This document shows positions 30,882-48,128 of a stretch of 64,000 nt of DNA, in pieces. Each line of letters opens with the position of its first letter. Position 1 is the stretch's first letter. Source of the stretch: an uncultured Poribacteria bacterium (lineage in GTDB: Bacteria; Poribacteria; WGA-4E; PCPOR2b); assembly GCA_958296125.1 (NCBI GenBank), contig OY282444.1, positions 4,497,623-4,561,622 on the forward strand. Direction: 5' to 3'. The notes under the pieces are model-generated. The model was not told the DNA's origin. It saw nothing but the letters and a program-made list of their open reading frames with translations, and did no database searches. The position numbers and the translations under genes were made by a program.

Positions 30882-32588
30882 CTACCATTTCCGTTTCCTT
30901 TTGGGAGAGGGTAGAATACCGAGCTCCTCACGGTATTTGGCAACAGTTCGCCTGGCCGTATGAACTCCTTGCGCTGCCAGCGTATCAGAGATTGCCTTAT
31001 CACTCAACGGTTTTGCCGTATCCTCGTTTTCAATCATGTCCTTAATTTTCTCTTTGACTGTGGTCGCAGCCATATTTGATCCGGAATCGGTCGAGAGTTC
31101 GCCGCTGAAAAAGTATTTCAGTCTATAGATGCCTTGAGGTGTTTCGACATACTTATTCGACGTGACCCGGCTGACAGTTGATTCATGGACACCTGCCATC
31201 TCTGCTATCTGCTTCAATACTAAAGGTTTAAGTCCTTCAACGCCTTGCTCCAAGAAACCTGCCTGTACCTCAAAAATTGCGTCCGTTACCCTTGCGATTG
31301 TTTGGCGACGCTGCACAATACTTTGTAACAAATCTCTCGCCTGAATTCTACGAGCGTCTAGCCACTCTTTTGTTTTGGTATCTAAGTTCTTGCTTCCATT
31401 GGTCATCCAATCCACATAAACTGGATTCAAACGAAGTCGAGGCATACCGTCGTCATTTGTACTAATTCGGTATTCTCCGTCAATGTTCTCAACGATGACA
31501 TCAGGTATGATTATTTCGGGGGTTCTTGGATCTATCGGATCGGAAAAGTGGCGGCCCGGATAGGGATCCAAAGTGCCAATTAGTTCCCGTGCTGCTACGA
31601 TTTCACCAATCTGTACCCCAAGTCCTTGGGCGATACGCTGCAGGTGATTATTCGTTAAATCCTCCCAATGGTGCTTGATAACCTCTTCTGCAAGTGAATT
31701 ATCAATTTGAGCAGCTCTCATCTGTATAAGGAGGGTTTCCGGGATTGTTCGGTAGGCAATACCGATGGGCTCAAAATGGTTTTGAATGAAGTGCAAGACA
31801 GCCTCTACCTCAGCCGTGTCGCAACCGACAACGCCTGCAATATCTTCGAGGGTGATGCTGTAGATATTTAACTGACCATCTTCCTTTTTAACTGTGTAGG
31901 TCTGTTCATCCTCCGCATCGGTTATCAGCCAACAGCTATCTTCCGATTTCACAGCAGTGGTCGCATTTTGAGACAGCGAAATTTCATCAGTTTCAAGTTC
32001 CTTACGCAGCCCTTTTTCGAGTACTTTTCGCAGGTCTTCTGAGAGGGCCCCAGTGTCTAAATCACTTTGGAACGAGGCGTTTATACCAAACAGGGGAACA
32101 GTTCGCAACTGACCGTTATCGTCAAGATTGCCAATAATCTGCTCACTAATCCTCCGGTCCATTTCCGAAAAAGGGGCGACGCTGAGCTGTTGCATCAGAA
32201 AATCGTGCAGCGACTGGAAGCAAGCGATATCCGATGGACGCTGATTTTCGTTGTTCTCCCAATGCTCAAACTCCCCGCTCTCACCCCGGTGGAGGGCATC
32301 ATCTAAAAAATCCTTCCAGTCAAAATCTGGCTCTTTATCTTCACGGTCGACAATCTCTTCAGGCTCATTCCATTGGGTATCCGGATCGAGTCCTTCTAAA
32401 TCGGTGATATCTTCGGTCTCGCTATCATCCGGTATCTCCTCTAAGAGCGGATTTTGCTCCAATTGCTGACTCAAATGTTGCGTCAGATCGAGCCGTGACA
32501 TCAGAAGTACCTGAATCGCTTGCTGTAGTTTGGGGGTCATGACCACCCGGTGCTGTAAGCTCGCGGTTTGTCTTATTCCAATGTTCAT
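30882..32588 (-). CDS. rpoN: RNA polymerase sigma-54 factor RpoN
   Basis: The 568-residue sigma-54 has a Gln-rich N-terminal activator region (KLQQAIQVLLMSRLDL), an acidic linker, the core-binding domain, the HTH segment and the RpoN box ARRTVAKYRE at 545-554. It directs RNA polymerase to -24/-12 promoters that need an AAA+ activator. A clear candidate promoter lies at 44019-44034. The linker region around 150-250 is longer than in E. coli. The gene sits between lptB and hpf. Confidence 0.95.
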   Translation of the reverse strand: MNIGIRQTASLQHRVVMTPKLQQAIQVLLMSRLDLTQHLSQQLEQNPLLEEIPDDSETEDITDLEGLDPDTQWNEPEEIVDREDKEPDFDWKDFLDDALHRGESGEFEHWENNENQRPSDIACFQSLHDFLMQQLSVAPFSEMDRRISEQIIGNLDDNGQLRTVPLFGINASFQSDLDTGALSEDLRKVLEKGLRKELETDEISLSQNATTAVKSEDSCWLITDAEDEQTYTVKKEDGQLNIYSITLEDIAGVVGCDTAEVEAVLHFIQNHFEPIGIAYRTIPETLLIQMRAAQIDNSLAEEVIKHHWEDLTNNHLQRIAQGLGVQIGEIVAARELIGTLDPYPGRHFSDPIDPRTPEIIIPDVIVENIDGEYRISTNDDGMPRLRLNPVYVDWMTNGSKNLDTKTKEWLDARRIQARDLLQSIVQRRQTIARVTDAIFEVQAGFLEQGVEGLKPLVLKQIAEMAGVHESTVSRVTSNKYVETPQGIYRLKYFFSGELSTDSGSNMAATTVKEKIKDMIENEDTAKPLSDKAISDTLAAQGVHTARRTVAKYREELGILPSPKRKRKW

Positions 32589-43724: not shown

Positions 43725-43871
43725 TAGAATCAGATCCTCTCAAATGATTTAGTTGTATATTGCACGTAACATGACTTATGTTGGCGTTTGCTTGGTCAAT
43801 TCACTGATTGGTTGTGCTCAGTATAGCACGGACTGTCCAAAAATTCAAGCCTTAGAATGTGCGGATCAATA

Positions 43872-43939
43872 GGTGTGTCTATTTAGGGACACACCATTCC
43901 ATTCGCGCTTGTCCCAAGTGTCACTGAACTGAGACACTT
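43872..43939. promoter_or_regulatory. Two inverted repeats, candidate activator sites
   Basis: GGTGTGTC (43872-43879) pairs with GACACACC (43888-43895), and AAGTGTC (43916-43922) pairs with GACACTT (43933-43939). Both share the GTGTC/GACAC core and lie about 80-150 bases upstream of the sigma-54 promoter, a usual place for an enhancer-binding protein. Confidence 0.6.
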
Positions 43940-44018
43940 TCCCTTCCCTCCTGACTTCGTTTTCCCCTCTGTGTCTGTAATCATCTCAAATCCTTTAAGG
44001 GGAAAGGATTGATGGTTT

Positions 44019-44034
44019 TGGCACGCGGCTTGCA
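44019..44034 (+). promoter_or_regulatory. Sigma-54 (-24/-12) promoter
   Basis: TGGCACG, four bases, then TTGCA. The invariant GG (44020-44021) and GC (44032-44033) are ten bases apart, exactly the consensus. Transcription should start near 44045, upstream of the lipoprotein gene at 44114 and perhaps of the ABC/DUF1854 genes. Confidence 0.8.
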
Positions 44035-44113: not shown

Positions 44114-44857
44114 ATGTTAGTTCGTATGTCATTCACAATAACAATGTCTATTTTTCTAGCGGGATGGATCTGTTGCATCATGTTTGGTTGTAATGACCAA
44201 TCGGCGGCATCGCCTGTGGCACCTGAAATTCAACTCTTGCAAGTGGGGGCATTTCACAGCGATGAGGTCTCAGCAAAATCAGGCGAAGTCTGGCTGGGAT
44301 TGTACCCGACACCCGATGGGTACGCGCTTATCCCTTCGAGAATTACGGTGGAAACTGTTTATGATCCGCTCGTTGATGATGAAGAAGAAAAGACTGGCAA
44401 AGCAGTATCAGTAAATGAGCAAACGCGCCCGCTCTTTTTGATAAAGGGCTTAGATGCACCGACAAGAGAATCCATCAAAACACTATCCGCTGAACAGACA
44501 ATTTTGCCCCCGGGTAAGTCCCTTGACCTTAGATTGGACAGCAAAAATGAGTATCAGTTGACGGCTTATGGCACGGAGAGTATAGGGCTGAACGGATTTA
44601 CTTCACTTGAGAACTACAGGCTCGAACTATCGAAGGGACAGTTTTCTCAGGAACTGCTTGCATACGACTCAACGAATGGTGCCATACCCAGCCTACTCTG
44701 GACAGGCGATCTGGATGGGGATGGTCAATTGGATCTGCTCATTAACGCGACTCCCCACTACGCCGTATATTCTGCACCGATGCTGTTTCTTTCGTCAATG
44801 GCTAAGGACGGTAATTTAGTCCAGAAGGTTGCCATCTTTATCGCCATCGGCTGCTAG
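44114..44857 (+). CDS. Lipoprotein with a DxDGDG repeat-like segment
   Basis: The 247-residue protein has a lipoprotein signal ending IMFGC (Cys26). The middle is not recognised; near the C-terminus the segment GDLDGDGQLDLLIN resembles FG-GAP/calcium-binding loops. The ATG at 44114 follows GGGGG. It lies about 70 bases after the sigma-54 start, so its expression should need RpoN and an activator. The function is unknown. Confidence 0.7.
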   Translation: MLVRMSFTITMSIFLAGWICCIMFGCNDQSAASPVAPEIQLLQVGAFHSDEVSAKSGEVWLGLYPTPDGYALIPSRITVETVYDPLVDDEEEKTGKAVSVNEQTRPLFLIKGLDAPTRESIKTLSAEQTILPPGKSLDLRLDSKNEYQLTAYGTESIGLNGFTSLENYRLELSKGQFSQELLAYDSTNGAIPSLLWTGDLDGDGQLDLLINATPHYAVYSAPMLFLSSMAKDGNLVQKVAIFIAIGC

Positions 44858-45128: not shown

Positions 45129-45160
45129 AAAACCGTGCCAAAATTCGTTGGTACGGTTTT
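45129..45160. terminator. Strong hairpin upstream of the ABC transporter gene
   Basis: AAAACCGTGCCAA (45129-45141) pairs over 13 bp, with one G-U, with 45148-45160; the loop is 6 bases. The plus strand continues TTTTCGTTCTTG, and the minus side has a run of eight T, so it can work in either direction. It lies 31 bases before the ABC gene start and could limit read-through from the lipoprotein gene. The rest of 44858-45191 shows no gene. Confidence 0.5.
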
Positions 45161-45191: not shown

Positions 45192-47558
45192 ATGCACAGC
45201 GGGGGATTTTCTAGACGAGACATGCATCGACTGGCTCGCTCTTCCGGTAGTAGGAATACCGATAGACAGCCCGATGTAGAGACGACAACTTTGGAAGAAG
45301 TTCCGGCAGCACTCCAACGTCAATTTGAGGATTTATTGGATGGAGAAGAAGATATTAAAATTGCTATCTCGACAGATCTACAGTTTGATGGCACTTACGG
45401 GAAAGATTGGGTGTTAGCGACGGAAAAACGCCTGCTCACTTTTAACCAGAATGGTGCACCCGCACCTGAAATCCGAAATATTGCGCTCGAAGCCATTGAC
45501 GAGATCCAAATACGAGAGTTACATGGCAATAATTTCATGAAAGTGCGAACCTCAGAGGGCGCATTTGAAGTAGCGCGCTACTCCAAGCGGTTTGCTCCCA
45601 AGTTTGCCGAAGCAACGCCAGAAATTGAATCTTTAATTGACAAAATTAAGCCGGATGACGTGGATAAATCTAAGCGGCATCGGAAGTACGTCGATCCCGG
45701 AAAAAAGAAGATTAGATGTGAAACCTGTGGACGGCCGATTCCACGGTGGTCTGAGGTCTGCCCAAACTGCGTCGAAAAAGGGAAATTGCTCTTCCGCCTA
45801 CTAAAATACGCGCTCCCATTTTGGCGTGTTTCTATCCCGGCACTACTCATCATGCTGGTCATACGGCTTGTAGACCTCTATCCCCCTATTCTGGGGCAGC
45901 GGCTTATTGATAACATCCTTATTCCTGCAACACTGGCAATAACTGGTGGACAGTCTGTTGAACCGGGCGTATTTGGACAACTTGTGACAATTGTGCTTTT
46001 GATGATCGGAGCGCACGCCTTCACAGCAGTTTTCTCAGCGGTGCGGGGATACATGATGACGTGGGTCGGTCAGCGTATCACCCTGAGATTGCGGAATGAT
46101 GCCTATCAGCATATGAGCATCCTCTCGCTTGATTTCTACCAGGATCGGGAGACGGGGAATCTGATGTCGCGCATCACTCAGGACATCGGACGGCTGCGGG
46201 ACTTCATCGCTGAAGGATTACAGGACATTATCGGCGATTCAATGACGCTGATCTATATGTGTATCATCATGTTCCTCTATAGCTGGCAGCTTGCACTCTG
46301 GGTCCTACTTCCGATTCCTTTCATTGTCCTTTTCTCATTCTATTTTGGACATAAGATGCACAAGGTTTTCCACGTCCTGTGGAAGCGCTACGCTGGGATT
46401 AGCACAATTTTAGCAAGCACGATTCCGGGGGTACGGGTTGTTAAGGCGTTTACCCGTGAGAAATACGAGGTCGAGCGTTTTCAAGAACAGACCCATCTGG
46501 TTTTTGACGGGGAGATGAGTGCCGCCAAACTGTGGACGCTTTATCAACCCATCATGATCTTCATGACATTTATTGGAACCATTTTCATCTGGTTAGTTGG
46601 GGGACGACAGATTCTCAACGGAACTTTAACGTTCGGTGAGTTGACGTTATTCATGACCTATATGACGCGGTTTTTACAGCCCGTACGGACGCTTGCTCAG
46701 ATGAACCGTCGATTCCTGAGAGCCGCCACTTCTGCTGAACGGGTCTTTGAGATCCTTGACACGCCTCCTAGCGTTGCGAGTAGTAAAGATGCTATTGACC
46801 TTCCAAATATGCGGGGTCAGGTCGAATTTCGTGACGTTTTTTTCTCTTACGATGGTGAGAAAAATGCCATCAATGGCACCAGTTTTACCGTCGAGCCGGG
46901 AGAAATGATTGGGCTCGTCGGACATAGCGGCGCGGGCAAAAGTACCCTCATCAATTTGGTTACCCGATTCTATGATCCCAACGAAGGTGAAATTCTCATT
47001 GATGGGCATGATAGCCGCGACATCGAACTCAAGTCCTTGCGGGGGCAAATTGGCGTGGTGCTGCAGGATCCATTCCTGTTTGAAGGCACCGTCGCCGACA
47101 ATATCGGTTACGGAAAACCGGCTGCGACTCGTCAGGAGATTATCGCAGCGGCCAAAGCCGCAAACGCCCACGATTTTATCGTTAAATTTCCCGATGGTTA
47201 CGACACGACGGTCGGTGAAAGAGGTACGCGCGTCTCTGGCGGAGAACGTCAACGGATCTCCATCGCTCGTGCTATCCTGAAGAATCCGCGCATTCTCATC
47301 CTTGATGAAGCGACTTCGTCTGTGGATACGGAGACTGAGTCAAGAATCCAAGAGGCGTTGGGGCGGCTGATTCGAGGACGAACCGTCTTTGCGATCGCAC
47401 ACCGCCTTTCGACACTTAAACACTCTAATCGTCTGGTCGTCCTCAAAGAAGGGCAAATTGATGAGATTGGCACACACAAGGAGCTCATCACCAAAGGCGG
47501 TACTTATGCCGGCTTATGTGAAAAGCAGATGGAGCTCTCAAAGATTCGGGCGTGGTAG
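45192..47558 (+). CDS. ABC exporter with N-terminal PH-like domain and zinc ribbon (cyanophycin-associated type)
   Basis: The 788-residue protein starts with a small mixed domain (about 35-150; WVLATEKRLLTF, resembling bacterial PH-like domains). A zinc ribbon CxxC-x10-CxxC (Cys176, 179, 190, 193) follows, then a six-helix type I exporter domain with DFYQDRETGNLMSRI. The nucleotide-binding domain has Walker A GHSGAGKST, signature VSGGE, Walker B ILILDEA and switch His in IAHR. The next gene is DUF1854, the usual partner of this ABC type, which is often annotated as linked to cyanophycin metabolism. The ATG has AAGGAGG 7 bases upstream. Confidence 0.85.
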   Translation: MHSGGFSRRDMHRLARSSGSRNTDRQPDVETTTLEEVPAALQRQFEDLLDGEEDIKIAISTDLQFDGTYGKDWVLATEKRLLTFNQNGAPAPEIRNIALEAIDEIQIRELHGNNFMKVRTSEGAFEVARYSKRFAPKFAEATPEIESLIDKIKPDDVDKSKRHRKYVDPGKKKIRCETCGRPIPRWSEVCPNCVEKGKLLFRLLKYALPFWRVSIPALLIMLVIRLVDLYPPILGQRLIDNILIPATLAITGGQSVEPGVFGQLVTIVLLMIGAHAFTAVFSAVRGYMMTWVGQRITLRLRNDAYQHMSILSLDFYQDRETGNLMSRITQDIGRLRDFIAEGLQDIIGDSMTLIYMCIIMFLYSWQLALWVLLPIPFIVLFSFYFGHKMHKVFHVLWKRYAGISTILASTIPGVRVVKAFTREKYEVERFQEQTHLVFDGEMSAAKLWTLYQPIMIFMTFIGTIFIWLVGGRQILNGTLTFGELTLFMTYMTRFLQPVRTLAQMNRRFLRAATSAERVFEILDTPPSVASSKDAIDLPNMRGQVEFRDVFFSYDGEKNAINGTSFTVEPGEMIGLVGHSGAGKSTLINLVTRFYDPNEGEILIDGHDSRDIELKSLRGQIGVVLQDPFLFEGTVADNIGYGKPAATRQEIIAAAKAANAHDFIVKFPDGYDTTVGERGTRVSGGERQRISIARAILKNPRILILDEATSSVDTETESRIQEALGRLIRGRTVFAIAHRLSTLKHSNRLVVLKEGQIDEIGTHKELITKGGTYAGLCEKQMELSKIRAW

Positions 47559-47595: not shown

Positions 47596-47618
47596 GAAAT
47601 GTGAAAGGAGTAGATGCT

Positions 47619-48128
47619 GTGGAGCAGCCCATTCGGATCGAAGATGAAGTCCAATTTCTTGACCCCAAACTGGTGAAAATTAGCCGCAACCAGTTTGCAG
47701 ACATGGAAGCAGAGCTGCCAGATGGTTCAGTTCATGCGCCTGTTGAGCCGGTACGCACGTTTCCATTGACCCAACCGGACCAATATATCAGCTTGCTTGA
47801 CGCTAACAAAAACGAGCTTGGCTTGATTGAGGACATAAAGCAGTTGAGAAAAGCGGATCGGACAGTCCTTGCGGAAGAGCTAAAAAAATGCTATTTTATG
47901 CCGAAAATTACGAAGATTCACTCCCTTGAGGGACGGTTCGGCATCACGCAGTGGGAAGCTGAAACTAACAGCGGCTCCGTTTCTTTTGATCTACGCTCTC
48001 GGCATGACATCACCTCACTCGATGGCGGACGGCTGCTGATTAAAGATGTTGATGGGAATCGATACGAAATTGTCAACTATCATCGGCTAGATCCGAAGAG
48101 TGTAGCCCTCCTTGAAACACAGATCTGA
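47619..48128 (+). CDS. DUF1854 domain protein
   Basis: The 169-residue protein matches DUF1854 (for example LGLIEDIKQLRKADRTVLAE, KIHSLEGRFGITQWEAET and RSRHDITSLDGGRLLIKD). In other bacteria this family sits beside the same ABC type and cyanophycin genes. The GTG at 47619 is preferred because AAAGGAG lies 8 bases upstream; the GTG at 47601 precedes that site. A role together with the ABC protein is inferred from adjacency. Confidence 0.8.
   Translation: MEQPIRIEDEVQFLDPKLVKISRNQFADMEAELPDGSVHAPVEPVRTFPLTQPDQYISLLDANKNELGLIEDIKQLRKADRTVLAEELKKCYFMPKITKIHSLEGRFGITQWEAETNSGSVSFDLRSRHDITSLDGGRLLIKDVDGNRYEIVNYHRLDPKSVALLETQI

Follow-up and report, generated by a model that had tools for sequence, protein, structure and literature searches.

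The closest described counterparts of the locus analyzed here are sigma-54/bEBP promoters of the NtrC/PspF type, which combine a -24/-12 consensus and two dyads 100 to 160 bp upstream with a genome that encodes a full sigma-54 and many bEBPs. The available text of a review places bEBP sites about 100 to 150 bp upstream (PMC7057263). A designed sigma-54 C-terminal peptide, RpoN*, blocks RpoN promoters in Pseudomonas, as described in the accessible part of its report (PMC5626770).

We investigated a stretch of 64,000 nucleotides (the window; G000:C1:4497623-4561622) from a poribacterial genome that consists of one contig of 5,156,246 bp. The locus shares all of the NtrC/PspF-type features named above. 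Unlike these promoters, it has a lineage-specific exported protein as its target, and the exact sequence of its site 2 is found a single time in a genome. We propose, with a probability of about 0.82, that a sigma-54 promoter with two upstream bEBP sites drives one gene, encoding a 247-aa exported protein at 44114 (Table 1). This reading builds on what the sequences contain: the elements in their particular geometry, conserved together with the target gene, a full sigma-54 and GAFTGA-bearing bEBPs.

Table 1. Features of the locus and of the second sigma-54-family protein (window positions unless a contig or locus is named)
Feature	Position	Strand	Remarks
rpoN, full-length sigma-54	30882..32588	-	AID, CBD and DBD all present
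Sigma-70-like TTGAAT-17-TATACT	43820..43848	-	Possible promoter of divergent NHL-repeat gene; strip conserved in genus
Dyad 1, GGTGTGTC-tatttagg-GACACACC	43872..43895	.	Predicted activator site; center ~-160 from predicted start
Dyad 2, AAGTGTC-actgaactga-GACACTT	43916..43939	.	Predicted activator site; center ~-117 from predicted start
Inverted repeat AATCCTTT-N6-AAAGGATT	43989..44010	.	Abuts -24 on upstream side; weakly conserved
Sigma-54 -24/-12 promoter, TGGCACGCGGCTTGCA	44019..44034	+	Direct reading; predicted start ~44044
Target gene, 247 aa	44114..44857	+	N-terminal signal/anchor; C-terminal DxDxDG motif; weak FG-GAP match
Terminator-like hairpin, 13-bp	45129..45160	+	Directly before ribosome-binding site of ABC gene; kept in 6/6 genus genomes
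ABC exporter	45192..47558	+	Nearest NF052233, below its cut-off; probably separate unit
DUF1854 protein	47601..48128	+	Nearest NF052234, below its cut-off
DBD-only sigma-54 relative	L298:1441-2814; 444-aa form G000:C1:518853-520184	-	PF04552

Promoter Element and Upstream Dyads

Direct reading of the sequence confirmed the exact-consensus -24/-12 element reported in the first-pass annotation, with ten bases between the GG at 44020-44021 and the GC at 44032-44033. A scan of the window allowing up to two mismatches resulted in nine matches (6.2 in shuffled sequence), with this element as the sole exact one. Genome-wide, exact TGGCACGNNNNTTGCW occurs four times, the window promoter included. When the upstream region (350 bp) was Markov-shuffled 3,000 times, the observed score or dyad count was never reached. 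The matrix used for -24/-12 scores has a maximum of 19.5.

The two GTGTC/GACAC palindromes described upstream of the promoter were likewise present in their reported places, starting at -144 and -101 relative to the -24 element. The dyad alone is not enriched in the genome (25 places for GTGTC-N6-12-GACAC versus 31 for the reversed control), and the window holds the only pair of such dyads that are no more than 50 bp apart.

We infer binding, activation, the start site and an activating signal along the following lines. RNA polymerase carrying the sigma-54 encoded by rpoN in the window would be held closed at the promoter, and AAA+ bEBP dimers, bound to the GTGT...ACAC dyads at distances of about 117 and 160 bp, would form an active ring upstream. 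This ring would loop to the promoter and open the closed complex by ATP hydrolysis, and transcription would begin at about 44044.

Target Gene and Extent of the Transcription Unit

A hydrophobic stretch lies at the N terminus of the target protein, and a D-x-D-x-D near the C terminus is invariant among its homologues. Pfam gave a weak FG-GAP match and nothing else, and an AlphaFold prediction (four sequences, mean pLDDT 33) was not used. The "lipoprotein" label previously given to the 44114 product appears doubtful, as only 6 of the 10 homologues, including the window protein, have the lipobox cysteine and 4 lack it.

We found the target gene in 9 of the 97 relatives searched, a count that leaves out a match in G091 (43 residues, E 1e-4) and short fragments of the N-terminal part in G002, G003 and G004. 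Such fragments, encoding the first 28 to 38 residues, lie elsewhere in G002 (L177:1501-1614), G004 (L178) and G003 (L180). The homologues in G007 (same family) and in G009 and G012 (another family) show 42 to 55% identity to the target protein (42 to 43% for G009 and G012). In these three genomes, which represent two other genera, the neighbors of the homologue are unrelated to those in the window, and neither ABC nor DUF1854 genes are nearby.

The best family matches of the two genes downstream of the target gene are the cyanophycin-associated ABC transporter (NF052233) and DUF1854 protein (NF052234). Unlike these systems, the window pair reaches neither curated cut-off (657 of 880 bits and 118 of 150 bits, respectively) and probably lies outside the sigma-54 unit. 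The storage-polymer link suggested earlier is not supported, since it would depend on family names whose cut-offs are not reached.

The sigma-54 transcript might extend over the ABC exporter gene and the DUF1854 gene, forming an operon of at least three genes with the hairpin as an attenuator. Strand and gene order are the same in all six genus genomes, the distance from the ABC to the DUF1854 gene is 12 bp (stop codon included) in four congeners, and the hairpin has no clean U tract. Nevertheless, we consider this longer unit unlikely. The 335 bases between the target gene and the ABC gene are mostly poorly conserved and end in the conserved hairpin (-17.7 kcal/mol, z -4.4), a putative terminator or attenuator. 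Moreover, the promoter-bearing gene in G007, G009 and G012 has no ABC or DUF1854 gene near it, and the ABC-DUF1854 loci examined in G007, G008 and order-level relatives have no target-gene homologue alongside. Because the conserved hairpin intervenes, and because NF052234 matches occur in 83 of 97 relatives versus 9 of 97 for the target gene, we take the transcription unit to be the target gene alone, with read-through possible. The first assumption, that this promoter controls the ABC exporter and the DUF1854 protein, is thus not supported; relatives carry the pair without the target gene.

Conservation of the Promoter and the Dyads

We compared the window genome with five congeners. The TGGCAC-N5-TTGC core is invariant in all six genomes, with variation in the five spacer bases. 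The contig of G001 stops just upstream of the promoter, which left four congeners for the comparison of the dyads (G002, G003, G004 and G005), all of which carry both dyads in GTGT...ACAC form; dyad 1 of G003 has GATACAC in place of GACACAC. The distance between the dyads is constant at 42 to 43 bp in the window and the congeners, and the stretch from dyad 2 to the promoter is about 20 bases longer in the window than in the congeners, corresponding to about two helical turns. Exact GTGTCACTGAA-N4-GACAC (site 2) occurs once per genome in five of the six genomes, always at this locus; the contig of the sixth ends before site 2.

The pattern could also be followed with the target gene, beyond the genus as well. 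A -24/-12-like site lies 67 to 96 bp before the start in 9 of 10 full-length homologue copies (nine genomes) and 67 to 85 bp before it in G007, G009 and G012, with weak matches in G007 (12.2) and G012 (12.6) on the matrix used. G009 has two GTGT-N8-ACAC dyads, which start 144 and 125 bp upstream of the -24 element; in G012 the first dyad, which is imperfect, starts at -144, and manual counting places the start of the second at -127. In G007 the dyads start at -277 and -230, the second being imperfect; without a 132-bp element they would fall at -145 and -98. This element (L172:1060-1191), located between the dyads and the promoter, has 13-bp perfect terminal inverted repeats.

Several observations count against our reading: the dyads are not enriched in the genome, their GTGT-to-ACAC spacing varies (8, 10 or 12), the second dyad of G007 is imperfect, the -24/-12 matches in G007 and G012 are weak, no bEBP gene was found in the flanks examined, and a second target-gene copy in G001 (C21) lacks the -24/-12 promoter, the dyads and the lipobox cysteine. 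Absence of the palindromes from orthologous regions had been named as evidence against the first-pass annotation; the dyads are present there, and its claim was not refuted. Dyads that would serve as activator sites are conserved about 100 to 160 bp upstream. We judge the promoter and the dyads to be real because they are conserved in relatives, which we regard as the decisive support.

Instead of being bEBP sites, the GTGT...ACAC dyads could act as operators, either for a repressor or for the divergent NHL-repeat gene. Short dyads of this kind suit many dimeric regulators, which speaks for such a role, as does their location between two divergent genes, 24 to 91 bp upstream of the sigma-70-like site. 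However, the NHL gene is not a neighbor in G007, G009 and G012, yet dyads accompany the -24/-12 site there at similar distances, and we regard operators as improbable. That the -24/-12 element is a chance match, with another sigma factor transcribing the target gene, is highly improbable: the genome-wide count of TGGCACGNNNNTTGCW with up to one mismatch is just 1.5 times that of the reversed-pattern control (60 versus 40), but the element is conserved in all six genus genomes and in two other genera.

Sigma-54, Activators and the Search for a Regulon

The presence of rpoN in the window was confirmed with all three sigma-54 domains, providing the genome with a full-length sigma-54. The sigma-54 activator domain gave 22 matches genome-wide, 20 of them strong. 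A script detected a GAFTGA-like loop in 14 bEBP sequences, and L020, L023 and L025 were without it. The examined flanks of the target gene contain no bEBP gene (14 of the genome's 20 bEBP sequences were used).

Orthologues of the bEBPs were assigned by reciprocal best hits against six genomes, with only 5 bEBPs for G008 and 14 for G012. With the N-terminal 336 aa of L010 (4167409, REC-PAS-AAA-Fis) as the query, orthologues with at least 63% identity were found in 8 of the 9 genomes that carry the target gene and in 1 of the 88 that lack it. The case for L010 as the activator is weakened by another sigma-54-like promoter, which follows the L010 gene in G007, G009 and G012 and has upstream GTTNCAAAATGTNNCAC repeats unlike the target-gene dyads, and L010 probably serves another promoter. 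A conserved sigma-54-like promoter with upstream GTTNCAAAATGTNNCAC repeats follows the L010-type bEBP (L197, L198, L190) and precedes a gene for a 362-aa protein without a Pfam match; the copy in the window's own genome is upstream of G000:C1:2480092. A second candidate, L018, was rejected: it precedes a promoter with AGTGTGCG-N6-CGCACACT, and the reciprocal comparison gave no orthologue in G009 and G012.

Among 27 sigma-54-like promoters, hand-picked from the 60 genomic sites with up to one mismatch, two GTGT dyads were found in the window only, and 2696407 has one. The upstream dyads differ among the sigma-54-like promoters of the genome, as would be expected if every bEBP has its own site. 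At two of these promoters (G000:C1:1028479 and 3468092) the same TGTTCA-N5-TGAACA dyad is found around -90 to -100; it is probably the site of another bEBP. One-mismatch -24/-12 sites 50 to 80 bp before PspA, Hsp20 and ClpB-like genes (G000:C1:5129289, 2874303 and 1586299) suggest a sigma-54 stress set.

The window aside, GTGTC-N6-12-GACAC occurs at 23 places, and at one of these (432219) a strong -24/-12 element lies within 400 bp. We dismissed it as a regulon member since its dyad is downstream of the -24/-12 element and within a duplicated coding region. With up to two mismatches, GTGTCACTGAA-N4-GACAC occurs at 18 places in the six genus genomes, and all five exact ones are at the target locus. 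The one-mismatch place (G002) has no -24/-12 element within 400 bp. One of the 12 two-mismatch places is dyad 1 of G002, and for two more a -24/-12-like site (12.2 and 14.8 bits) lies no farther than 400 bp away. The regulon for which a genome scan with the motif pair had been proposed did not emerge, as exact site 2 is found only here. The first-pass annotation thus holds for the sigma-54 promoter, the paired repeats (probably activator sites) and rpoN, and is not supported for the regulon, the control of the ABC/DUF1854 genes and the lipoprotein.

A Second Sigma-54-Family Protein

PF04552 has a second match at 518910, in a 457-aa protein for which Pfam gives Sigma54_DBD alone; neither the activator-interacting nor the core-binding domain was found by Pfam. 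The profile alignment covers residues 300 to 440 only, about the last 140 residues. TIGR02395 matches residues 210 to 438, and a remnant of the core-binding domain is possible on this alignment. The protein is strongly conserved, and the HESTVSR helix and RRTVTYYR are retained in all nine aligned sequences. The DBD-only protein was found in 12 of 97 genomes (two as contig-end fragments), namely in all nine with the target gene and in G008, G074 and G083. Shared ancestry suffices to explain this overlap, the clade being small.

Judged by its retained motifs, the DBD-only protein could compete with sigma-54 at -24/-12 promoters. More speculatively, and with little probability in our estimate, the clade's -24/-12 promoters, including that of the window, may be read by both sigma-54 and the DBD-only protein, the latter as a natural regulated roadblock. 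Its DBD, carried on an N-terminal half of other origin, would bind the same elements without recruiting polymerase. In comparison with RpoN*, as far as the accessible part of PMC5626770 describes it, the shared feature is the sigma-54 C-terminal DNA-binding part without the remaining sigma-54. Unlike RpoN*, the poribacterial protein is natural and measures 444 to 457 aa; it retains the -12 helix as well as the RpoN box, and its N-terminal half shows no clear match to sigma-54. The truncated RpoN proteins of Neisseria are a different case, as their missing domains include the DNA-binding one; the available text of that study does not mention Poribacteria (PMC12316311).

Significance

As far as sequence comparison can tell, the promoter is real, conserved and ordinary in kind. 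A literature search combining Poribacteria with sigma-54 and sigma-factor terms found no study of the subject. For Poribacteria, the locus provides a sigma-54 promoter that is well supported and has predicted activator sites, and it links one lineage-specific exported protein to a predicted activator-controlled signal. The DBD-only sigma-54 relative would be of greater importance if it is true that it acts at such promoters.
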